Source of the DNA: Desertivirga xinjiangensis
GTDB lineage: Bacteria; Bacteroidota; Bacteroidia; Sphingobacteriales; Sphingobacteriaceae
Length of the DNA: 64,000 nucleotides
Direction: 5' to 3'
Assembly: GCF_024436435.1 (NCBI RefSeq)
Contig: NZ_JAFMZP010000002.1
Span: 62,001-126,000, forward strand
Both the position numbers and the translations under genes were made by a program. Each line of letters opens with the position of its first letter. Within the stretch, counting starts at the first letter, position 1. Below are positions 7,716 to 31,387 of the stretch, piece after piece. Below the pieces are notes generated by a model that had not been told where the DNA came from, searched no databases, and saw only the letters and a list, made by a program, of their open reading frames with translations.

Positions 7716-8747
7716 ATGACTTCTAATCCAGATACTACCTCCATTTTGCCGCCAGTGATTTTCGGTACGAGCGGTTTGGGTAACTTGTTTGTGGCCCTTG
7801 ATGACGCGATAAAATTGGAAATTGTAAAAGAATGTTTTGCCCATTCAAACGGCCCTGTGGTTTTTGACTCAGCGGGGAAGTATGGAGCGGGACTGGCACT
7901 CGAATCGCTGGCAAAATGTCTGAAACAACTAAATGTTCCTCATTCGGATGTGATCATAAGCAATAAATTAGGCTGGTATCGCACTGAATTGACCACCCCC
8001 GAACCTACTTTTGAGATAGGAGTATGGAAAGATATTCAGCATGATGCGGTGCAAAAGATCAGCTATCAGGGCATCCTCGATTGTTTTTACCAGGGAAATG
8101 AGCTGTTAGGACAGTACGCCCCGCAAATGGTTTCAGTGCACGATCCTGATGAGTACCTCGCTACTGCGAAGTCTGAAGAACATCGTAAAGAATTATACAA
8201 CGATATACTGGAGGCATATAAAGCTCTTGCTTTGCTGAAGGAACAAGGCAAAGTGGAGTCGGTAGGAGTAGGAGCGAAAAATTGGAAAGCCATTGAAGAA
8301 ATAGCCGCAGATGTGAAACTCGACTGGGTAATGATTGCCAACAGCATGACTATTCATGACCATCCGGCAGATCTGCTTGCTTTCATGGAACAGCTAAAAG
8401 CAGAAGGTATACAGATCATCAATTCAGCTGTTTTCAATGCCGGCTTCCTGATCGGAGGAGATTTCTATAATTATAAACTTATCGATCCGCTGCTTCCTGA
8501 GAATCAGCATTTGTTCAAGTGGAGAGAGGAGTTCTTTAATACCTGCCATGATTTTGGCGTTAAACCTGCGGAAGCTTGTGTTTACTTCGGTTTGCATGCT
8601 CCAGGAGTAAGCAGTATTGCGTTAAGCACTACAAACCCGAAACGAGTGAAGGAGAATATAGAAATGGCGTATAAGGAAATTCCGGCTGCCTTCTGGGCAG
8701 CTTTGAAAGAAAAAGGACTTATTGAGAAGGAATATTCTTACCTGTAG
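7716..8747 (+). CDS. Aldo/keto reductase family oxidoreductase
   Basis: A 343-aa NAD(P)-dependent oxidoreductase of the AKR superfamily, closest in appearance to the D-threo-aldose/L-fucose 1-dehydrogenase or L-galactose dehydrogenase group. The catalytic tetrad can be placed as Asp and Tyr in FDSAGKYGAG, Lys in ISNKLGW and His in SVHDPDEY. An N-terminal FGTSGLGN strand opens the barrel and the cofactor-binding segment SSIALSTTNPKRVKEN is near the C terminus. It starts 29 bases after gatC. The natural sugar substrate is not evident from neighbours. Confidence 0.88.
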   Translation: MTSNPDTTSILPPVIFGTSGLGNLFVALDDAIKLEIVKECFAHSNGPVVFDSAGKYGAGLALESLAKCLKQLNVPHSDVIISNKLGWYRTELTTPEPTFEIGVWKDIQHDAVQKISYQGILDCFYQGNELLGQYAPQMVSVHDPDEYLATAKSEEHRKELYNDILEAYKALALLKEQGKVESVGVGAKNWKAIEEIAADVKLDWVMIANSMTIHDHPADLLAFMEQLKAEGIQIINSAVFNAGFLIGGDFYNYKLIDPLLPENQHLFKWREEFFNTCHDFGVKPAEACVYFGLHAPGVSSIALSTTNPKRVKENIEMAYKEIPAAFWAALKEKGLIEKEYSYL

Positions 8748-8958
8748 GAGCTGAAAGAGCACATTGCTGAACTCTAAGCACTGCTTGTAATTCCTTAAGG
8801 AAGAACTTATATAGGGACTGTAAATTTTACGCAGCTTGAGGGCAGCTCAACCCCACTTTAACCGCACCTTGACCGCTAGAAATGCGATTGGAGTGTGTTA
8901 AGCATGCGGCTCAGGTAAGCTTTATTTGAACTTTAATTGATTCCGCTTCCCCGGCGTT

Positions 8959-9993
8959 TTATATCCAAAATGCCTCGCTTCCAGGTTCAAGATTTTTGAA
9001 AATAGAGAAAGCCTGCTTGCTTCTTTTTCCGCTGTTGCAATAGAATAAGATTTTTTTACCGGAAGCCACAAGTTTTTCGATCTCGTCCGGTATTTCAGAT
9101 AAAGGGATGTTTATTCCATTCAGGCTGCCATCGGCTTCAAACTCGATGGGTTCCCGTACATCTACCAGTAAAACAGAATCCTGATTGTTTTCCAGGAAAA
9201 GGTCCAAGTCTTCTGGTAATAGCCTGTTTTTATCGTCTGTAGTGTTAGGTGCAGACTCCGGACGTTCAGTTGTCGTAACCGGAGCAAGCCTTGATACCTT
9301 AAACAGGTTAAATGTATTTTCCAGAACGTTCATGATCAGCAGTTTTCCGGATAAAGATTCACCAGTGCTCAGGATGATCTTAAGTGCTTCATTAGCCATG
9401 AACGATCCTATGATTCCTGGAAGCACTCCTAATACACCGTTTTCGGCGCAATTGGGACTCTCTCCGGCTTCGGGAAACACGCAGCGAAAGGTGGGGCCGT
9501 TCCGGTAGTTAAATACCGATACCTGGCCTTCAAATCCGAAAATGGAGCCAAATACCAGAGGCTTGCCTAGTCTGACGCAAGTGTCGTTCACGAGATACCG
9601 GGTAGCAAAGTTGTCGGACCCATCAACCACAAGTTCGTAGCCTGAAAACAGATCTTCAGCATTATCAGCTTGTAAACGGACAGGGTAGGAGCTGATATTA
9701 ACAAAAGGATTAAGGCTTCTGAGTTTCTCAGCAGCCACTTCTGCTTTGCTTTTTCCAATGTCGGCACTCGAATAAAGGATCTGCCGGTGCAGGTTGCTTT
9801 CATCTACCTTGTCATCGTCTACAATGCCAATATTTCCAACACCAGCAGCCGCGAGGTATTGTAGGAGCGGACATCCCAGTCCTCCCGCTCCAATAACAAG
9901 CACTTTTGCTGTTTTAAGTCTTTTTTGTCCCTCCAGACCTATTTCTGAAAGGATTATCTGGCGCTGATATCGTTTTAGTTCTTCTTTTTGCAT
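8959..9993 (-). CDS. thiF: ThiF/MoeB-type adenylyltransferase with C-terminal rhodanese domain
   Basis: The protein adenylates the C-terminal Gly-Gly of a small sulfur carrier, here most likely ThiS, before thiocarboxylate formation for the thiazole of thiamine. Residues 1-235 form the E1-like domain with the nucleotide loop GAGGLGCP, NLHRQ, SDNFATRYLVND and the NCAENGVLGVLPG cysteine segment. Residues about 245-344 are a rhodanese domain with active-site loop FYCNSGKRS, so sulfur transfer is built in. The paired zinc CxxC motifs of MoeB/ThiF are not obvious. It is the last gene of the thiamine operon, separated from thiH by 294 bases of repeats. A MoeB role cannot be excluded. Confidence 0.88.
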   Translation of the reverse strand: MQKEELKRYQRQIILSEIGLEGQKRLKTAKVLVIGAGGLGCPLLQYLAAAGVGNIGIVDDDKVDESNLHRQILYSSADIGKSKAEVAAEKLRSLNPFVNISSYPVRLQADNAEDLFSGYELVVDGSDNFATRYLVNDTCVRLGKPLVFGSIFGFEGQVSVFNYRNGPTFRCVFPEAGESPNCAENGVLGVLPGIIGSFMANEALKIILSTGESLSGKLLIMNVLENTFNLFKVSRLAPVTTTERPESAPNTTDDKNRLLPEDLDLFLENNQDSVLLVDVREPIEFEADGSLNGINIPLSEIPDEIEKLVASGKKILFYCNSGKRSKQAFSIFKNLEPGSEAFWI

Positions 9994-22129: not shown

Positions 22130-22693
22130 ATGCCAAATACAAAAACAAGCACCGCGAAAAAGAGCGGTAACACGAAACAACGTACAGTAGAACAGGAAAG
22201 CGCTCTGAAAGAATTATTTGTTGACGGATTGAAAGATCTGCTTTGGGCCGAGAAACAATTAGTTAAAAGTCTGAAGACTTTTGTGAAAGCAGCTACATCC
22301 GACGAATTGAAGAGTGCCTTTGATACGCACCGTGTAGAAACAGAAGGTCAGATAGAACGCCTAAACCAGGTGTTTGAGGCTGTAGGCGAAAAGGCTACGG
22401 CAAAGAAATGTGATGCCATGGAAGGTCTTGCTAAAGAAGCCGAGGGTTTGATAGAAGAAACGGAAGATGGTACAGAGGTTAGGGACGTTGCCCTGATTTC
22501 GGCAGCCCAAAAGGTAGAACATTATGAGATTGCGTCTTATGGTACTCTTAAAACACTTGCTGGTGTACTGGGCTTTACAGAAGCACAAACGTTACTGGAG
22601 CAGACACTTGAAGAAGAGAAGAAAACCGACGTTCTGCTGACTGAAATTGCAGAAGGCTTTGTGAATGAAGCTGCTAAAGACGAAACTAAGTAA
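22130..22693 (+). CDS. YciE/YciF-like ferritin-fold protein (DUF892)
   Basis: A 187-residue four-helix ferritin-like protein of the YciE/YciF family, associated with osmotic and oxidative stress in other bacteria. After a Lys/Thr-rich N-terminal tail (about 20 residues, resembling a DNA-binding or disordered tail), the helices carry DGLKDLLWAEKQL, ETEGQIERL, QKVEHYEIASYG and LEQTLEEEKKTD, with Glu and His positioned for a di-metal site. It is followed by a hairpin and then by manganese catalase, suggesting a joint oxidative-stress role. Confidence 0.9.
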   Translation: MPNTKTSTAKKSGNTKQRTVEQESALKELFVDGLKDLLWAEKQLVKSLKTFVKAATSDELKSAFDTHRVETEGQIERLNQVFEAVGEKATAKKCDAMEGLAKEAEGLIEETEDGTEVRDVALISAAQKVEHYEIASYGTLKTLAGVLGFTEAQTLLEQTLEEEKKTDVLLTEIAEGFVNEAAKDETK

Positions 22694-22700
22694 TCAATGG

Positions 22701-22740
22701 AATATTTACCGGACTTCAGATGCCGGTAAATATTTTTTCT
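22701..22740 (+). terminator. Terminator or attenuator between YciF-like and catalase genes
   Basis: A perfect 12-bp stem, AATATTTACCGG/CCGGTAAATATT, encloses a 10-base loop and is followed by TTTTTCTTT. The catalase ATG is only 23 bases downstream, so partial read-through is likely if the catalase lacks its own promoter. Confidence 0.85.
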
Positions 22741-22762
22741 TTCATCTACCTAATTAAAGAAC

Positions 22763-23722
22763 ATGTTTTACCACGTAAAAGAACTACAATTTAACGCCCG
22801 GGTGTCAAAACCAGATCCTCGTTTTGCCCGGCTGCTTTTAGAGCAATTTGGAGGGGGCAACGGCGAGTTGAAAGCCGCTATGCAGTACTTTGTACAGGCC
22901 TTCGGCTGTAAAAATCCATATCCGGATAAATATGATCTGCTGATGGATATTGCTACGGAAGAATTTAGCCATCTTGAAATAGTTGGAGCAACTATTCAGA
23001 TGCTTTTAAGTGGCGTTAACGGCGAGCTTAAAGACGCAGCTGATAGTGAAGAGATCATGCAGATGCTCAACGGAACTACGGCTAAAGAAGGATTCATCCA
23101 TGAAGCAATGGTGAACCCGCAATTTGGGGTGCTTTCTGGCGGAGGACCAATGCTGACTGACAGCAACGGCGTGCCCTGGACAGCAGCCTACGTGAATGCA
23201 AATGGTGATCTTACAGTTGATCTCCGTTCAAATATAGCAGCTGAATCGAGGGCTAAGATCGTTTATGAATATCTTTTAAAATTCACCGACGATCCGTATG
23301 TTAAAGAAACTCTTCGTTTCCTTATGACTCGCGAGGTAGCACACTATCAACAGTTTGAAGCTGCCTTAAACACCATTCAGCCAAACTTTCCTCCCGGAAT
23401 CCTGCAAAGCGACCCGAGGTATAGTAACAGATATTACAATATGTCTTTTGGTGCTGAGGCTCGCGGTCCATGGAATGATGGAACCAGCACTCAATTAGGC
23501 GAAGCCTGGCAGTATGAGGCAGATCCCTTGCAGCAAGTGAAGGAAACTAACGGTTTGATCGACCTGAAGCCGGAAGGTACCGACCGTACCGAAAAATCGG
23601 TTTCAAAAACAAACCAGGCTCTGGGTAAGGAGCGCAGCACAGAAGTAAAAAGTGCAACTCCCGAAACTGATATACAGTGGAGTGCATATGCCGACACGGT
23701 TAAAGTTGTTAAAAAGAAGTAA
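22763..23722 (+). CDS. Manganese catalase
   Basis: A non-haem dimanganese catalase that disproportionates hydrogen peroxide. The 319-aa ferritin-fold enzyme has metal ligands placed as Glu35 (NGELKAAM), Glu67 and His70 (EEFSHLE), a later Glu in ESRAKIVYEYL and the REVAHYQQF pair. The C terminus after residue 270 is a low-complexity Lys/Thr/Ser tail. The last 35 bases overlap the start of the DsbA-like gene. Together with the YciF-like and YtxH genes it forms a stress group. Confidence 0.94.
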   Translation: MFYHVKELQFNARVSKPDPRFARLLLEQFGGGNGELKAAMQYFVQAFGCKNPYPDKYDLLMDIATEEFSHLEIVGATIQMLLSGVNGELKDAADSEEIMQMLNGTTAKEGFIHEAMVNPQFGVLSGGGPMLTDSNGVPWTAAYVNANGDLTVDLRSNIAAESRAKIVYEYLLKFTDDPYVKETLRFLMTREVAHYQQFEAALNTIQPNFPPGILQSDPRYSNRYYNMSFGAEARGPWNDGTSTQLGEAWQYEADPLQQVKETNGLIDLKPEGTDRTEKSVSKTNQALGKERSTEVKSATPETDIQWSAYADTVKVVKKK

Positions 23723-24416
23723 ACCGGTGGACTTAGTTAATGATGCGGATCGGGTACAAGTAGTTTATTACACCGATCCGCTTTGCTGCTGGAGCTGGGC
23801 TTTTGAGGAACAGTGGCAGCGCTTGATAAAAGAATACTCTGAATTTTTTGACCGGACTTACTGCATGGGAGGGCTAATTCCTGACTGGAAAACTTTCAGC
23901 GATCCCATGAATGCAATAAGTCGTCCCCTGCAGATGGGTCCTCTTTGGTATGAAATCCAACAGCTTACAAGCTGTGAGGTAAACGATAATATTTGGATCG
24001 ACGATCCGCCCTCATCGTCGTATCCCGCTTGTATTGCAGTGAAAACTGCAGGACTTCAGTCTGCAGCTGCTGCTGAAAGATACTTGTACCTGATTAGAAA
24101 AGCTGTGATGGCAGAGGGAAGAAATATCGCGCGCCCGGAGGTGCTTGCTGAAGTGGCCGAACAACTTTCAGAGCTTTATCCAGATTTTGATGCATCCCTG
24201 TTTAAACGCCAATACAATTGCCAGGAAGCCAGGGATGCTTTCAGGAACGACCTGAATCAGGTGAAGATACATAAGATCGGACGATTTCCCACCTTAATTT
24301 TCAATAAATCGGGAAGGGGATTGATGATCACTGGCTTCAGACCCTACGATGCCTTAGAAAAAGTTTTGTTGCAATTAATAAATCCTCAACCTGAGAAGAA
24401 CTATTCTGAAATATAA
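23688..24416 (+). CDS. DsbA-like thioredoxin-fold protein (Thioredoxin_5/YjbH-like)
   Basis: A 242-aa thioredoxin-fold protein with a CxW-type N-terminal site, DPLCCWSWAFE, instead of CxxC, and GRFPTLIFNKSG as the cis-Pro segment. This matches the DsbA-like group to which Firmicutes YjbH (an adaptor for Spx degradation) belongs; no Spx gene is visible here, so the role is open. No signal peptide is present, so it is cytoplasmic. ATG 23688 overlaps the catalase end by 35 bases; a GTG at 23727 would avoid the overlap and is an alternative start. Confidence 0.8.
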   Translation: MPTRLKLLKRSKPVDLVNDADRVQVVYYTDPLCCWSWAFEEQWQRLIKEYSEFFDRTYCMGGLIPDWKTFSDPMNAISRPLQMGPLWYEIQQLTSCEVNDNIWIDDPPSSSYPACIAVKTAGLQSAAAAERYLYLIRKAVMAEGRNIARPEVLAEVAEQLSELYPDFDASLFKRQYNCQEARDAFRNDLNQVKIHKIGRFPTLIFNKSGRGLMITGFRPYDALEKVLLQLINPQPEKNYSEI

Positions 24417-24453
24417 GTGTTACACTTTTAACGACGAATTTAAACACATTCAA

Positions 24454-24783
24454 ATGAAGAACTATAAAGATTTAATTCAGGATGCTGAATCATTGTTTAA
24501 AGATGTAACCAGCGAACATGCTAGTAATGGCAATGGAAAAATTATTGCCGCGGCAGCTATTGGCTTAGCAGCAGGCGCTATACTGGGTATTCTTCTGGCT
24601 CCTGCAAGCGGAACTGAAACAAGGAGCACTATTGTTGACGGTTTAGGAGGAGCAGGAGCTAATTTAAAAGAAAAAGCAAGGCAGGGAATGGATAAACTGG
24701 CGGATTTGAAAGATCAGGCAGTTGATGCTGTAAAAAGCAAGGTTCAAAGTACAGGCTCTGCTGATCCAAACCCAACAGTATAA
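24454..24783 (+). CDS. YtxH-domain small stress protein
   Basis: A 109-residue protein with one glycine/alanine-rich membrane-like helix (about residues 27-50, IGLAAGAILGILLAPASGTE) followed by an amphipathic Lys/Ala helix with repeated DxxK pattern. This is the YtxH-type arrangement found in general-stress proteins. It starts 37 bases after the DsbA-like gene and ends at a bidirectional terminator. Molecular function is not known for the family. Confidence 0.8.
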   Translation: MKNYKDLIQDAESLFKDVTSEHASNGNGKIIAAAAIGLAAGAILGILLAPASGTETRSTIVDGLGGAGANLKEKARQGMDKLADLKDQAVDAVKSKVQSTGSADPNPTV

Positions 24784-24834: not shown

Positions 24835-25362
24835 TTACGATCCTTTTTCACCCACAAACTGATCTTCTTTATATTTAAACAACACGTTGAACGTTGTTAA
24901 ACTACCGTAAATACGCGTTATATACTGCTGAAGGTTAATTTTCTCCTCATTATCAATATTACTGCTGTTCACTCTTTGTTCAAGCACCCTTAACCTGTCG
25001 CGCACCATTACAATTTTATTAAAAAACTGATCGATCGGAATTTCTTTTATTGCTAGGCCGGTGCTGCCTGGTTGAAGAATCATCTTTCCATTCTTCCATT
25101 TATCACCTAAGGGTACCACTTCAGAAACATCAGACCATCGTTGCAATAATTTTTTAAGGGTCTGTTCCACTTCCCAGGCACTAACCATATCTGTATCAGG
25201 CGCCATGTCATCCAGAACTTCCAAAGGCTCTGTTATTGGAAGCTCCTTGTATCCACTTTCAATAAAGGTTACCAGCAAAGCATTAGAGCGTACATTAATA
25301 ACAACTCCCTTGCCATAAGTATCATGTTTAACCCGCGAGCCGATTCCTATATTGTCTTGCAT
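24835..25362 (-). CDS. Hypothetical protein with N-terminal tudor/SH3-like segment
   Basis: A 175-aa soluble protein that I do not recognise as a named family. The N terminus (GSRVKHDTYGKGVVINV, residues 8-24) resembles the small beta-barrel at the C terminus of UvrD/PcrA helicases, which contacts RNA polymerase. The middle is acidic, and residues 90-165 are predicted helical with KIVMVRDRLRVLEQRVN and IYGSLTTFNVLF. It is monocistronic and convergent with the YtxH gene. Function cannot be assigned. Confidence 0.75.
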   Translation of the reverse strand: MQDNIGIGSRVKHDTYGKGVVINVRSNALLVTFIESGYKELPITEPLEVLDDMAPDTDMVSAWEVEQTLKKLLQRWSDVSEVVPLGDKWKNGKMILQPGSTGLAIKEIPIDQFFNKIVMVRDRLRVLEQRVNSSNIDNEEKINLQQYITRIYGSLTTFNVLFKYKEDQFVGEKGS

Positions 25363-25587: not shown

Positions 25588-26397
25588 ATGGAAACTGGTT
25601 TAAGTAAGGAAAAGCCCGAAGTGAGATTACGGGTGTTCAGGGCGATTGACGATCCTGAAGCTTGCAGATTGTTCTTAGAAGGGCATGCCCATGTATTAAC
25701 CAGTATAGGGATAACAAAGGTAACTTCATCGAAAAATGAGTGGACTACGAATCCGGCGGCCTTTGTTCTTATCGTGGAATCGCTGGATGGCAAAAAAGTT
25801 TATGGAGGCGCACGTGTACATGTAGCGGGGGGGAGTCAGCCTTTGCCTATTGAAGAGGCGACCGGGGCATTGGATCCTGCTATTTTTGACCTGGTATATA
25901 AACATGCCATGCATGGAACCGGTGAGCTGTGTGGTTTGTGGAATTCAAGAGAGATTGCGGGTTATGGAATCGGCAGTATTTTTTTGATCAGGGCGGCAGT
26001 TGCAATCTCACACCAGATCGGTTTAAGTACTCTTTTTGCATTATGCGCCCCTTACACCATTAAGCCGGTGGAGAGTTGTGGTATGGATCATGAAACCAGT
26101 ATCGGAAACCAGGGAACATTTTATTATCCGAAACTAGACCTGGTTGCCACCACCATGTTATTAAGAGATGTACCTGTGCTAAGTAAGGCACATGAGGAAG
26201 ACAAAGAGGCTATTCTTAAAATAAGGGAACTTCCTGATGTGATCCGGGTTGAAGAACTTCGAAAAAAAGAAATTACAATACATTATCAGACAGGTATTCC
26301 GCATCTGAGTGAGTGGAGTTTGAATGATACTATTGAGTCTGCAAAAACGAATTACCTTAAATATAAAATTGACCAGGAAAATATAAATTTCCTTTAA
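25588..26397 (+). CDS. Putative GNAT-fold acyltransferase, unknown substrate
   Basis: A 269-aa protein without a clear named family. The order of elements suggests an acyl-CoA N-acyltransferase: a strand with KVYGGARVHV, then a strand-loop-helix AGYGIGSIFLIRAAV resembling the GNAT cofactor loop, then STLFALCAPYTIKPVESCGM resembling the GNAT beta5-alpha4 end. Residues 200-269 are an added charged helical tail. Autoinducer- or N-acyl-amino-acid synthase-like proteins share this general layout, but I cannot show that. It is the first gene of a run with a methyltransferase (22 bases later) and three signalling genes. Confidence 0.6.
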   Translation: METGLSKEKPEVRLRVFRAIDDPEACRLFLEGHAHVLTSIGITKVTSSKNEWTTNPAAFVLIVESLDGKKVYGGARVHVAGGSQPLPIEEATGALDPAIFDLVYKHAMHGTGELCGLWNSREIAGYGIGSIFLIRAAVAISHQIGLSTLFALCAPYTIKPVESCGMDHETSIGNQGTFYYPKLDLVATTMLLRDVPVLSKAHEEDKEAILKIRELPDVIRVEELRKKEITIHYQTGIPHLSEWSLNDTIESAKTNYLKYKIDQENINFL

Positions 26398-26419
26398 ATA
26401 CAAACAGATACAATTACTT

Positions 26420-27187
26420 ATGGCTGATAAACATTACGATATTACTTATTTGCAAAACACGGTTAGGTTGCTGAAAAGCCTAAAAGACCATTCTTATACT
26501 TTTTTTCAGGATATAGACAGTGGTTCTATTGTTGACCTGGGATGCGGGGCAGGTAACGATGTGATCGAGTTGTCAAAAATGCTAGGGGAACAGGTGAAAG
26601 TGATCGGTGTTGATCATGATCCTGTAATGCTTGAGCAAGGTCGTGCTCAATCACAGGCTGCCGCTACCAACACAGAATTTATCTTATCTGAAGCTTTTCC
26701 TTTGCCATTCCAAAACGGAGCAATTGCTGGTTTAAGGAGCGAACGACTGATTCAGCATCTTCACAATCCCGAGAAAGTGTTTGCAGATATCCACCGCATA
26801 CTGGCTGATGGAGCTCCGCTTGCAATTATTGAAACAGACTGGCATAGCCTGTCTTTTTATACTGAGTTTGTGGATACGGGCAAAAAGATCAATGCCTATC
26901 TTACCGATGTTAAGGTGAAAAACGGTTTTGCAGCGCGCAAATTAACGACCTATCTGCAGACCCTTAATTTCAGGAACATCCAGTTTGAAATTCATCCATT
27001 TGTAGTAAATAGCCTTGAAGAGGCCAATGAATATTTCTGGATTGACCGGATCGTTAAAGAGGCGGCTGAACTCGGATATATTACAGAGGCAGAGCGTAAT
27101 GACTTTTACCATGCAATGCAGTCTTCCAACGATAGATCTTACTTTTCTTGCTCAATAAACCTCGTTGTAGCCTCCTGTATCAAATAG
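26420..27187 (+). CDS. Class I SAM-dependent methyltransferase
   Basis: A 255-aa Rossmann-fold methyltransferase. Motif I is VDLGCGAGND near residue 38, motif II VIGVDHDP near 65, and motif IV-like GLRSERLIQHLHNPEKVF near 110, a pattern of the UbiE/type-11 small-molecule group. The acceptor is unknown. It lies 22 bases after the GNAT-like gene and only 7 bases before the histidine kinase, so the three are probably transcribed together. Confidence 0.88.
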   Translation: MADKHYDITYLQNTVRLLKSLKDHSYTFFQDIDSGSIVDLGCGAGNDVIELSKMLGEQVKVIGVDHDPVMLEQGRAQSQAAATNTEFILSEAFPLPFQNGAIAGLRSERLIQHLHNPEKVFADIHRILADGAPLAIIETDWHSLSFYTEFVDTGKKINAYLTDVKVKNGFAARKLTTYLQTLNFRNIQFEIHPFVVNSLEEANEYFWIDRIVKEAAELGYITEAERNDFYHAMQSSNDRSYFSCSINLVVASCIK

Positions 27188-27194
27188 TATCAAA

Positions 27195-29354
27195 ATGATT
27201 AAATCGTTATTTTCCTTAGGCTTTGGTATTTTACTGTTATTGTTCAGTTTGAACGTAAAGGCCGATATTTTTATCACCGATTCTACAGACAGGATTATGG
27301 TGGGTAAGCAGCTTTCGGTTTTGCAGGCTGATAAGGAACTGACTTTCGGGCAGGTGCTGAATTCTAACGCATTTAAACCTAATAACTCGGAGGTGCCAAA
27401 TTTGGGAATCTCACCTGTAAGTACGTGGCTGAAGTTCACGATAACGAATAAAACCAGCAGCCAGCGGCTTCTGCTGGATGTGGCATATCCCATGCTGGAT
27501 GAAGTGGAGCTGTTTGTGCCTGATACTGGCAATACTTATTCAAGCATATTATTGGGTGAGGTTAAGAAATTCAATACCAGGAAATACAAACATCCTGACT
27601 ATATTTTTGACATCAATGTGCCTCAAAATAGTAGTAAGACGTATTATTTGAGGATCAAAGGCGCCGAACAACTGATCATTCCCATATCAGTGAACAAGCC
27701 GGATACCCTCTGGCAGACCCTGACAACAGAAAACCTTCTTTCAGGAATTTACTGGGGAGCGGTGCTTATCATGTTCTTGTATAACCTCTTTGTTTATTTC
27801 TCTGTTAAAGACAAGAGTTATATTTATTATGTAATTTACGTAGCTTCGGTTGGCCTTACGCAGCTGGGAATCAAAGGATTTACGTTTCAGTTTCTTTTCG
27901 GAAACTATCCGGATTTCGAACAAAAAAGCATTGTCATATTTGCCAGTGTTGGGGGCATAGCTGCTTTGATGTTCACTAAGAGTTTTGTGTTAACTGCACA
28001 AAAAGCACCGAAGTCTGATAAAGTTCTTTCGGCCATTATCGTCTTTTTGTTTATAGCAATAGGACTCACCCTGATTGGAGAGATCCAGGCTGGATTCCAG
28101 GTAATGCAGGTATCAACCACGGCTTTCTCCATAGCTATTATTGCCGTTTCGGCAATTGTAATGCGAGATGGGTACGGCCCTGCTAAGTTTGTTTTTGTTT
28201 CCTGGTCAATCTTTTTTATTGGCGCCATCATTTTTGCGCTGAAAGATTATGGGATCCTGCCGTTCAATAATTACACGAGTTACACCATGCAGGGAGCTTC
28301 TGCCATTGAGATGGCGCTTCTGTCTTTCGGACTTGCAGACAAAATCAACGTACTTAAGAAAGAAAAAGAAGCTTCTCAGGCCGAAGCTCTCCGGATAGCA
28401 ACTGAAAACGAGCGGATCATCCGTGAACAGAATGTGGTTTTGGAAGCCAAAGTGAGTGAAAGGACGTTTGAATTAAAAGAAGCGAATACTGAACTTTATA
28501 AAACGCTCGACGATTTGAAGCAGGCGCAGACGCAACTGGTAGAGTCTGAGAAGATGGCTTCGCTGGGTCAGCTTACCGCCGGTATTGCTCACGAGATCAA
28601 TAACCCGATAAACTTTGTGACCTCGAATGTAAATCCTCTTCAGCGGGATGTTGATATACTATTTGACGCACTGGAAGCTATTGAGGAAACAGGAATGTCG
28701 GATGCACCGGTAGCCGATAAACAAAAGAAAATTGAAGAATATAAAGAGGAGATCGACCTGGATTACCTGAAGATCGAAATTTCTCACTTACTTAAGGGTA
28801 TCAGGGAAGGGGCTGGCCGGACTGCCGAGATCGTCAAAGGTCTGCGTGTGTTCTCCCGCCTGGATGAGGACGATCTCAAACTTGCCGACATCAATGATTG
28901 TCTTGAGTCAACCATGGTGATTGCAAACAATTTGCTGCAAGATAACATTAAAGTAGTGAAAGATCTGGATGAATTACCGCTCGTGGAGTGCTATCCTGGT
29001 AAATTAAACCAGGTATTCCTGAATATAATTTCAAATGCTATACATGCGATCGGTAAAAAGCATAATGGAGCAGGCGGTGGAGAACTGAAAATATCGACGC
29101 GGAAAGAAGAAGACAACGTGTTCATCTCGATTTCTGACAATGGTGTCGGTATGGACGACAATACGACTAAAAAGATATTTGAACCTTTTTTTACTACCAA
29201 AGAGGTCGGTGAGGGAACCGGATTAGGAATGTCGATTGCCTATAATACCATCAAAAAACATAATGGTATCATTCACATAAACACAGAACCCGGAAAAGGA
29301 ACTGAATTTATTATAGAATTGCCCGTATTGCACAGGATTAGTGCAGCGGTCTAG
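27195..29354 (+). CDS. 7TMR-DISM sensor histidine kinase
   Basis: A 719-aa membrane kinase. Residues 1-23 are a signal peptide, 25-165 a 7TMR-DISM extracellular jelly-roll domain (ligand-sensing, often carbohydrate-like), and 180-390 seven membrane helices. A coiled coil (about 390-450) joins the dimerisation domain with the phosphoacceptor His466 in GIAHEINNPINF. The ATPase domain has NIISNAIHAI (N box), ISDNGVGMDD (G1) and GTGLGMSIAY (G2). It starts 7 bases after the methyltransferase and is followed by a REC-kinase and a REC protein, its likely phosphorelay partners. Confidence 0.95.
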   Translation: MIKSLFSLGFGILLLLFSLNVKADIFITDSTDRIMVGKQLSVLQADKELTFGQVLNSNAFKPNNSEVPNLGISPVSTWLKFTITNKTSSQRLLLDVAYPMLDEVELFVPDTGNTYSSILLGEVKKFNTRKYKHPDYIFDINVPQNSSKTYYLRIKGAEQLIIPISVNKPDTLWQTLTTENLLSGIYWGAVLIMFLYNLFVYFSVKDKSYIYYVIYVASVGLTQLGIKGFTFQFLFGNYPDFEQKSIVIFASVGGIAALMFTKSFVLTAQKAPKSDKVLSAIIVFLFIAIGLTLIGEIQAGFQVMQVSTTAFSIAIIAVSAIVMRDGYGPAKFVFVSWSIFFIGAIIFALKDYGILPFNNYTSYTMQGASAIEMALLSFGLADKINVLKKEKEASQAEALRIATENERIIREQNVVLEAKVSERTFELKEANTELYKTLDDLKQAQTQLVESEKMASLGQLTAGIAHEINNPINFVTSNVNPLQRDVDILFDALEAIEETGMSDAPVADKQKKIEEYKEEIDLDYLKIEISHLLKGIREGAGRTAEIVKGLRVFSRLDEDDLKLADINDCLESTMVIANNLLQDNIKVVKDLDELPLVECYPGKLNQVFLNIISNAIHAIGKKHNGAGGGELKISTRKEEDNVFISISDNGVGMDDNTTKKIFEPFFTTKEVGEGTGLGMSIAYNTIKKHNGIIHINTEPGKGTEFIIELPVLHRISAAV

Positions 29355-29395
29355 ATTAAGGCATATAATTGGAATCTATCAACCAGAAAGGCACC

Positions 29396-30481
29396 ATGCC
29401 AGAGAAAATAAAAATATTATACGTCGATGATGAGCAAAATAACCTGATAGGATTTAAAGCCTCTTTTAGGATAGATTATGCTATTTTCATAGCCAATAAC
29501 ACAACGGAAGCAAAGAAAATACTTGAACAGCATCCTGATATCAGAATTATCTTCTGTGATCAGCGGATGCCGGACAAAACAGGGGTAGAGTTCTTTGAAG
29601 AGATCCGTCTGGATCATCCGCATCCTATCCGGATATTACTGACTGGATATACCGATATAGAGTCGGTTATTGACGCGATAAATCGTGGGAATATTTACAG
29701 ATATGTCAAAAAACCATGGGGAAATGAAGACATTCGCGCTGCCATTGAAGAGTCTAATAAATTTTACCTGGCAAATTCCATGCTTGCAATAAAAAATACA
29801 GAATTACAGAAAGCCTATACCGAGCTGGATAAATTTGCATATAGCGTAAGCCACGATATCCGAGGTCCCTTATCGGGTATACTTGGAGCTATCAGGGTAG
29901 TGAAACATCTTGATACTATCGAAGATATGAAAGAGATGCTTTTTTTAATGGAGAACTCTGTTAAAAAGCTGGATACCTTTATCTTGAGCGTTCACGATTA
30001 TTATAACATACAAAGGGGCGATCTAAAGATTTCCGAAATCGACCTGAATACCATTGCCGCCGATCTCGGTGACATGTATAGTATGTATACCAATGCTAAA
30101 AACGTCAGCTTTTCTGCAACTGTTAATCAGAACGAAGGGTTTAGAAGTGATGAAATTTCCGTGAAACTGGTGCTGAATAATTTGCTGTCGAATGCCTTTA
30201 AATACCAAAGGAAAGATAGCCCGAATAAATCCGTCAGCTTAGAAATGGAAGTTGACAAGGGGATCGCCACTTTCTATGTTAAAGATAATGGTATCGGTAT
30301 CGACGATAAATATCGATCAGAAATATTTAACTTGTTCTTCCGCGCTACATCTCAGGAGGCAGGTTCTGGATTTGGCCTGTACAATGTAAAAGATGCCCTG
30401 CTAAAATTAAACGGCAACATTGAGGTGAATTCTGTAGTAGGAGAGGGCACAATTTTTAAGGTTACAATTCCAAGTAAATAA
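29396..30481 (+). CDS. Response regulator-histidine kinase hybrid (REC at N terminus)
   Basis: A 361-aa cytoplasmic protein with an N-terminal receiver domain (residues 5-120: DD pair at 11-12, phosphoacceptor Asp55 in IIFCDQRMPD, T83 in LLTGY, Lys106 in KKPW). A short coil leads to a histidine kinase core with His153 in YSVSHDIRGPL, N box NNLLSNAFKY and G boxes DNGIGIDD and GSGFGLYNV. The frame reaches a TTG at 29369, but ATG 29396 places the first strand correctly. It ends 3 bases before the next REC gene. The REC-first order suggests it is driven by the upstream 7TM kinase and passes phosphate on. Confidence 0.93.
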   Translation: MPEKIKILYVDDEQNNLIGFKASFRIDYAIFIANNTTEAKKILEQHPDIRIIFCDQRMPDKTGVEFFEEIRLDHPHPIRILLTGYTDIESVIDAINRGNIYRYVKKPWGNEDIRAAIEESNKFYLANSMLAIKNTELQKAYTELDKFAYSVSHDIRGPLSGILGAIRVVKHLDTIEDMKEMLFLMENSVKKLDTFILSVHDYYNIQRGDLKISEIDLNTIAADLGDMYSMYTNAKNVSFSATVNQNEGFRSDEISVKLVLNNLLSNAFKYQRKDSPNKSVSLEMEVDKGIATFYVKDNGIGIDDKYRSEIFNLFFRATSQEAGSGFGLYNVKDALLKLNGNIEVNSVVGEGTIFKVTIPSK

Positions 30482-30484
30482 TAA

Positions 30485-30877
30485 ATGAGCAAATACAATT
30501 TTATTGTTATTGACGATTCTGCCCTGGATTGTTTCATTGCAGAGAAAATGATCGTGCATACCGGCCTGTGCGAAACGGTCAGGTGTTTTACACAGGCTAG
30601 TGATGCTTTAGAGTATATACAGGCCAGTTCGCTTGAGGCAGCTACGCTTCCTACGGTGGTTATACTGGATGTTTTAATGCCAATGATGAGTGGTTTCGCA
30701 TTTGTAGAAGCATTTGAGGATCTTCCCGAAGATGTAAAGGAGCGATACACGATTGTGGCGCTCACTTCTTCAATGAACAAAACTGATATGGAAAAGATCG
30801 TCAGTTACCAGGTGGTAAAAAAGTTGCTGGACAAACCTATCACTTCCGAAACGATCATAACGCTTTTAGAACGCTAA
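30485..30877 (+). CDS. Single-domain response regulator
   Basis: A 130-aa CheY-like receiver. Acidic pair D10-D11, phosphoacceptor Asp62 in VVILDVLMP, Thr/Ser in ALTSS and Lys in LLDKPI are all present; no output domain. It starts 3 bases after the hybrid kinase and its stop codon is part of a terminator hairpin, so it ends the five-gene run that begins with the GNAT-like gene. It probably serves as a phosphate shuttle or a protein-interaction output. Confidence 0.93.
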   Translation: MSKYNFIVIDDSALDCFIAEKMIVHTGLCETVRCFTQASDALEYIQASSLEAATLPTVVILDVLMPMMSGFAFVEAFEDLPEDVKERYTIVALTSSMNKTDMEKIVSYQVVKKLLDKPITSETIITLLER

Positions 30878-30943
30878 GGCTTTTTTCAAAGCCTTTACGC
30901 AAGCAGACTTTTGACAAAGCCTTTACGAAAGCAGGCTTTGTCT
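30876..30943. terminator. Terminator hairpin and 28-bp direct repeat between convergent REC genes
   Basis: AAGGCTTT (30876-30883) pairs with AAAGCCTT (30888-30895) around TTTC, directly at the stop of the plus-strand REC gene. CAAAGCCTTTACG occurs at 30887 and again at 30915 (period 28), and the second unit can fold AAAGCC/GGCTTT. The second unit also encodes the last residues of the minus-strand REC gene. Confidence 0.75.
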
Positions 30944-31387
30944 TACCAGGAACTCAAGCTGGTCGTTAGAAACGGCCAGTTTGCTATTCATTTCGACAAT
31001 TTCTTTCTTTTCCTTATAAACCTCGTAAGCACGTTCGATAGATTGGGTAAGCTCTTCTTCATTCCAGGGCTTAGCAAGATAATGAAAGATCTTTCCCTTA
31101 TTTACAGCATCTACCACGGCTCCCATATCTGCATAACCAGTTAAAAGAATTCGCATAGGGTCTGGAGTAGTTTCCAGAACTTTTTCTAAAAATTGAACAC
31201 CAGTCATGTTTGGCATTCTCTGATCCGTAATAATAACATCTACATGCTTTTGTTTAAGGATCTCCATAGCTTCATCACCACTTAGAGCTATCAAAACATT
31301 GTACTTCAACCTGAAAGTTGCCTTGAAAGACATCAGATTGTTGTGTTCATCATCTACGTACAAAACTGTTATTTTATCCTTCGACAT
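30923..31387 (-). CDS. Response regulator, REC domain with helical tail
   Basis: A 154-aa receiver protein closely similar to the N-terminal REC of the hybrid kinase at 29396 (shared YVDDExNNL, TDQRMPxxTGV, ILLTGY and KPWxxE). Phosphoacceptor is Asp55. After the REC fold, a helix (about 112-150) aligns with the linker of the hybrid and stops just where that protein's kinase domain begins. It could be a truncated relative of the hybrid or a genuine REC-coil adaptor. It is convergent with the five-gene run and separated by the hairpin repeat. Confidence 0.9.
   Translation of the reverse strand: MSKDKITVLYVDDEHNNLMSFKATFRLKYNVLIALSGDEAMEILKQKHVDVIITDQRMPNMTGVQFLEKVLETTPDPMRILLTGYADMGAVVDAVNKGKIFHYLAKPWNEEELTQSIERAYEVYKEKKEIVEMNSKLAVSNDQLEFLVRQSLLS

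Follow-up and report, generated by a model that had tools for sequence, protein, structure and literature searches.

We have found that five neighbouring genes in Desertivirga xinjiangensis have the appearance of a complete chemical-signalling unit of soil bacteria, comprising an enzyme predicted to attach a fatty acid to an amino acid, an enzyme that would modify the product and a membrane receptor that probably detects it. The modifying (tailoring) enzyme and the sensing half of the receptor have been exchanged together between species. The strongest evidence is phylogenetic: on the tree of the sensor half of the receptor, all 36 loci with a methyltransferase form one clade among 161, whilst the same label needs 13 changes on the trees of the synthase and of the kinase half of the same protein. 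That the product is the ligand is inferred from this joint exchange, and co-transfer by simple adjacency is not fully excluded. The genes lie in a window of 64,000 nucleotides (contig NZ_JAFMZP010000002.1, positions 62,001 to 126,000), the whole stretch of DNA that was analysed, and the features are as follows.

25588–26397 (+), SYN, acyltransferase of predicted FeeM/LuxI fold, predicted N-acyl amino acid synthase (269 aa)
26420–27187 (+), MT, class I SAM methyltransferase, the putative tailoring enzyme in the variable slot (255 aa)
27195–28394 (+), sensor half of the 7TMR-DISM histidine kinase (gene 27195–29354), DISMED2 extracellular domain and 7TM domain (residues 1–400)
28422–29354 (+), kinase half of the same protein, coiled coil, HisKA (AHEINNP at residue 465) and HATPase
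29396–30481 (+), REC-HK, receiver plus histidine kinase (361 aa), PhcR-like domain order
30485–30877 (+), REC, stand-alone receiver (130 aa), PhcQ-like domain make-up
30876–30895 (no strand assigned), hairpin between the convergent REC and REC2 genes, possible shared terminator
30923–31387 (−), REC2, convergent RpfG-type receiver (154 aa), conserved next to the block

The five-gene run described in the first-pass annotation was confirmed: all five open reading frames lie on the forward strand with gaps of 22, 7, 41 and 3 bases. REC-HK is taken to start at the ATG at 29396, although its longest reading frame starts at a TTG at 29369. Domain searches identified Methyltransf_25 in MT (58 bits), DISMED2 (PF07696, 108 bits, cut-off 22, residues 40–166) and the DISM 7TM domain (PF07695, 164 bits, cut-off 29, residues 179–383) followed by HisKA and HATPase (PF02518, 86 bits) in the kinase, a receiver (PF00072, 59 bits), HisKA (27 bits) and HATPase (74 bits) in REC-HK, and receivers in REC (41 bits) and REC2 (79 bits). 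The phosphoacceptor motifs are all present, including the Asp and His motifs of REC-HK and the LDVLMP Asp motif of REC. The annotation had the run ending at one terminator, for which the evidence is weaker; two hairpins, at 30876–30895 (−10.6 kcal/mol) and 30913–30942 (−14.3 kcal/mol), lie between REC and REC2, but a pattern-based terminator scan does not list the site. Promoter matches were at chance level (18 found, 17.5 expected). The sixth conserved member, REC2, had been missed.

SYN has no match to any Pfam or NCBIfam family, and searches against PDB sequences also found nothing; no Pfam family was returned up to E 10, and neither the FeeM family (PF21926) nor the acyl-homoserine-lactone (AHL) synthase families were found for its counterparts in 21 relatives. 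Only the fold search was informative. AlphaFold2, run on an alignment of 58 relatives, gave a confident model (pLDDT 89.4, pTM 0.89) whose best structural matches are FeeM (2g0b_A, Z 15.8 over 177 aa at 2.7 Å) and the CoA-dependent AHL synthases BjaI and RpaI (Z 14–15; BjaI Z 14.8 over 197 aa), ahead of ordinary GNATs. The same two structures, FeeM and BjaI, are reported as the closest to TyzA, the N-acyltyrosine-forming enzyme of the tyrazolone pathway, which was assayed as an amino acid N-acyltransferase (PMC10404671). The annotation had considered the resemblance to autoinducer-type synthases to be one of general layout only, whereas the predicted fold itself matches that of N-acyl amino acid synthases. 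Fold alone does not prove the activity, however, and SYN shows no secure sequence similarity to FeeM or to actinobacterial acyltransferases. Direct homology to the actinobacterial acyltransferases found next to Rv1355c-type genes rests on one weak HMM match (12 bits, locus L188) that was not confirmed by hhalign.

SYN is present in one copy per genome and the block is conserved across the class Bacteroidia. In the first 20 relatives examined, SYN is followed by a DISM kinase and, in nearly all, a REC-HK. Of 80 named loci, the DISM kinase neighbours SYN in 78, the other two being cut by contig ends, REC-HK is present in 74 and REC2 is found within 8.5 kb of SYN in 73, so that the run is not a chance arrangement. 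In the wider class, SYN occurs in 54 of 295 genomes, and one genome of another class of the phylum has it; plasmid and phage records hold no SYN. Fifty-five loci, mostly from deeper branches, show the same block, commonly with ThiF upstream of SYN. Among 60 relatives, REC-HK at E ≤ 1e-60 occurs in 27 genomes, all SYN-positive, and in none of the 29 SYN-negative ones. A non-GNAT fold, or a lack of synteny of the first two genes with the kinases, had been set beforehand as grounds for rejecting the interpretation, and neither was observed.

The methyltransferase is not a fixed part of the block but one of several alternatives in a variable slot. In most relatives the slot holds a ThiF cyclase, often fused to a flavin oxidase (ThiF-FDO), of the Rv1355c/TrzS family that makes N-acyl oxazolones; one of the ThiF genes (locus L089) lies just upstream of SYN. 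Among cultured environmental strains, Pedobacter arcticus A12 and Paradesertivirga mongoliensis have MT, and Pedobacter puniceum and Arcticibacter svalbardensis have ThiF-FDO. The ThiF-FDO beside SYN in locus L052 scores 786 bits against the Rv1355c-family equivalog model NF005901 (cut-off 476), and ThiF-only proteins reach 449–474 bits over the first half of the model. Rv1355c is TrzS, shown by assay to cyclise and desaturate N-acyl tryptophan to an oxazolone (PMC12856293). In the 60 relatives, 11 are above the cut-off, and all 24 strong hits to the model lie beside SYN with none in SYN-free genomes. The best hit in the window's own genome is a general ThiF-type match of 41.7 bits; MT stands in for the cyclase, and we therefore do not regard this system as an oxazolone pathway. 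In one further family of loci (f36), the slot holds an ICMT-family (isoprenylcysteine carboxyl methyltransferase) gene in seven loci, counting L142, an FAD-binding oxidase in one (L228) and nothing in nine. The nine enzyme-less loci were checked for a decayed ICMT gene and none was found. Outside this family, locus L152 also lacks an enzyme.

The AlphaFold2 model of MT (pLDDT 92.8) has a class I methyltransferase fold. Sequence and fold searches return general class I methyltransferases, among which the carboxyl methyltransferase LahSB (E 5e-8, Z 20.4) does not stand out, and do not indicate which atom is methylated. ICMT enzymes methylate a carboxyl group of a lipidated amino acid, and ThiF also acts on the carboxylate; this is why we favour the carboxylate as the target of MT, but the step is an inference.

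To determine which genes follow the tailoring enzyme, trees of each gene were compared for 72 loci with the enzyme type (MT or ThiF) as a label. The label needs 1 change on the sensor half of the DISM kinase (1 on the extracellular domain alone and 1 on the 7TM domain alone), but 12 on the kinase half of the same protein, 11 on SYN, 14 on REC-HK and 11 on REC2, compared with about 23 for shuffled labels. In its tree, the kinase half follows SYN and the relay genes and not the tailoring enzyme. The result holds with 161 loci (one genome entering twice, as L120 and L190), where the 36 MT sensors form one clade with support 0.998 (1 change). AU tests reject a single MT clade for SYN (p 2e-36) and for the kinase half (p 5e-79), whilst the sensor half gives it with support 100. 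Narrow windows along the protein place the switch at residues ~381–410, just after the 7TM domain and before HisKA. Thus, enzyme and sensor are exchanged together.

Some of the exchanges are recent. The two congeners of the window's species carry ThiF; against them, SYN is 67–68% and the kinase half 71–73% identical, but the sensor is only 33–34% identical. Against an MT locus of Mucilaginibacter (L112), the sensor is 63% and the MT 65% identical. Within Mucilaginibacter itself, L112 (MT) and L115 (ThiF) share 76% of SYN and 84% of the kinase half but 34% of the sensor, and L075 (ThiF) and L079 (ThiF-FDO) share 84%, 84% and 28%, respectively. At a kinase identity of 70–80%, MT–MT pairs have 62% identical sensors (minimum 49) and MT–ThiF pairs 33% (maximum 40).

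From these data, we consider it more likely than not, though well short of certain, that the operon makes and senses its own small molecule. In this view, SYN joins an acyl group to the amino group of an amino acid, as inferred from its fold and from the enzymes beside its relatives. MT would then methylate the product, most likely at the free carboxylate, giving a neutral N-acyl amino acid methyl ester, whereas in most relatives a ThiF cyclase would seal the same carboxylate into an oxazolone. The product would leave the cell or membrane and bind the extracellular/7TM half of the DISM kinase, whose kinase half would phosphorylate the receivers of REC-HK, REC and perhaps REC2, as in the Phc system. 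None of these proteins has a DNA-binding domain and the output would lie elsewhere. The predicted fold, the conserved block, the alternation of tailoring enzymes and the joint exchange of enzyme and sensor half are established by the analysis; the acylation and its substrate, the site of methylation, the release, identity and binding of the ligand, the order of phosphotransfer and the output are inferred. The proposal in the first-pass annotation that the first two products make a small molecule sensed by the DISM receptor is thus largely supported, with the correction that the methyltransferase is one of several alternatives, most often an oxazolone-type ThiF cyclase.

Joint exchange is what is expected if the sensor reads the product of the enzyme, but it could also arise by hitch-hiking. 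SYN and the tailoring enzyme might make a lipid (a membrane constituent, surfactant or antibiotic), with the DISM kinase controlling the cluster in response to an unrelated cue such as envelope stress or a carbohydrate, and the sensor half moving with the enzyme only because the two lie side by side between conserved, recombination-prone flanks. MT and the sensor-coding half are indeed adjacent in all of the MT loci seen, and N-acyl amino acids with antimicrobial roles are known (PMC12856293, PMC12479983). However, the break falls at the domain junction inside one gene rather than at scattered places, and there is no mismatched MT/ThiF sensor in the 36 MT loci. In addition, the distances of enzyme and sensor agree beyond those of SYN, kinase, REC-HK and REC2 for MT (partial r 0.46) and ThiF-FDO (0.75), with 0 of 2000 permutations each; the agreement for ThiF alone is less (0.30, 61 of 2000). 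The loci in which ThiF lies upstream of SYN, and is separated by it from the kinase, provided a control for adjacency but gave a mixed answer. The agreement persists for ThiF-FDO (partial r 0.36, 0 of 1000, while SYN in between gives −0.02) but is absent for ThiF alone (0.11, 163 of 1000) and for all together (0.03), and overall the association of enzyme and sensor in these loci is no better than with SYN or kinase. ICMT-type and enzyme-less loci also share one sensor clade. On balance, we consider hitch-hiking unlikely but not excluded.

It is also possible, though we think it improbable, that the kinase does recognise the product but only to adjust its own production or to detect competitors, rather than for cell–cell signalling. 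The same data support this reading, nothing here distinguishes self-sensing from quorum sensing, and no output regulator is encoded; nevertheless, a three-protein relay with no DNA-binding member and a wide conservation suggests a broader regulatory output, as in Phc (PMC8578825). That SYN is an ordinary GNAT acting on a protein or an antibiotic, unrelated to the kinases, is very unlikely. GNAT folds are common and sequence families give no match, but the ranking of FeeM and the AHL synthases as best structural matches and the strict co-occurrence with oxazolone-type cyclases and the DISM relay disfavour it.

The individual parts are of known kinds. The OxzAB, TyzACB and TrzAS oxazolone pathways of Pseudoalteromonas and Mycobacterium (PMC10404671, PMC12856293) have a FeeM/LuxI-fold acyltransferase beside a ThiF cyclase, alone or fused to a flavin oxidase; the window has a methyltransferase in place of the cyclase, and the published clusters have no linked receptor kinase, Mycobacterium tuberculosis trzAS being only near c-di-GMP genes (PMC12856293). 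The stieleriacine and thalassotalic acid N-acyl tyrosine clusters (PMC12479983) contain an N-acyl amino acid synthase with ThiF, nitroreductase and methyltransferase genes. There the methyltransferase occurs beside ThiF, while here the two exclude each other, and no receptor kinase is mentioned in the description consulted. The LuxI-type AHL synthases and FeeM share the predicted fold of SYN (Z 14–16), although SYN is partnered with a membrane kinase and not with LuxR. Genes 2–5 repeat the domain order of the phcBSRQ quorum-sensing operon of Ralstonia (methyltransferase, sensor kinase, REC-HK, REC), whose relay also lacks DNA-binding domains (PMC8578825); this is a likeness of layout only. In the window, an additional synthase of predicted FeeM fold comes first, the sensor is of the 7TMR-DISM kind, and the substrate would be an N-acyl amino acid, not a 3-hydroxy fatty acid. 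What appears to be new, relative to known pairings of an autoinducer synthase with a receptor kinase, is the combination of a synthase of predicted FeeM fold with exchangeable cassettes of tailoring enzyme and receptor sensor that would feed a 7TMR-DISM kinase; no description of it was found in the papers searched, which did not include subscription papers and preprints.

In its broadest form, which we regard as only slightly more likely than not, this would be a cell–cell signalling system spread through the class Bacteroidia that uses N-acyl amino acid derivatives (oxazolones, methylated or free forms) as signals and 7TMR-DISM kinases as receptors, and in which species change signal dialect by swapping a cassette made of the tailoring enzyme and the sensor half of the receptor. 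N-acyl oxazolones are made by mycobacteria and proteobacteria, and a 2025 study calls their role a major unresolved question (PMC12856293). In Bacteroidia the same kind of cluster is tied to a membrane receptor kinase, the sensor half of which changes with the tailoring enzyme, making a signalling role for these poorly understood lipids testable. If the product is the ligand, this gives oxazolone-type lipids a receptor, gives Bacteroidota a LuxI-fold signalling system of their own, and offers a natural set of swapped enzyme–sensor pairs for working out ligand specificity in 7TMR-DISM receptors, a large group with few known ligands.

Two features were found in the window just upstream of the locus, which begins with the gene for SYN, the predicted N-acyl amino acid synthase:
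22130-24783, a run of genes including a DUF892 protein, with likenesses, judged by eye only, to a manganese-catalase-like, a DsbA/FrnE-like and a YtxH-like protein.
24835-25362, - strand, a small protein with a weak match to the PcrA/UvrD tudor domain.
The second of these is conserved next to SYN in the two congeneric genomes (loci L074 and L084), with 82-86% identity.

Variation was also seen in the synthase and in the tailoring slot of related loci. In locus L200 (contig C4 of genome G662, 69313-71271), two tandem SYN genes lie between the ThiF-FDO gene and that of the DISM kinase, a possible recent duplication of the synthase. In locus L228, the tailoring slot (8078-9685) holds a 535-aa FAD_binding_4 oxidase, a further kind of modifying enzyme that was seen once. 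Two actinobacterial plasmids carry Rv1355c-type genes. In that of Streptomyces sp. NBC_01431 (locus L187, 5155-7023), a single 622-aa protein fuses a weak FeeM/GNAT-like domain (PF21926, 14.3 bits, below the cut-off) to an Rv1355c-type ThiF domain and is followed by a KAS III gene, making it a possible one-polypeptide oxazolone synthase. In that of Rhodococcus sp. AQ5-07 (locus L188, 2881-6974), an Rv1355c-family gene lies beside a 259-aa protein that weakly matches the SYN profile and a GGDEF gene, echoing the c-di-GMP neighbours of trzAS in M. tuberculosis.

The phosphorelay genes differ from those of the window in three sets of loci. In the Pedobacter loci L052, L061 and L062, REC2 sits between the DISM kinase and a divergent REC-HK, about 40% identical to that of the window, so the relay was rearranged or replaced. 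In the group f9 genomes (loci L165, L166, L168, L170 and L173-L175), REC-HK is replaced by a longer protein; the one scanned, that of L165, is REC-PAS-HK, suggesting an added sensory input in the relay. In the two Taibaiella loci, L109 and L120, REC-HK was not found and REC2 is turned to read in the same direction as the operon, so that REC2 may be the direct phosphate acceptor there.
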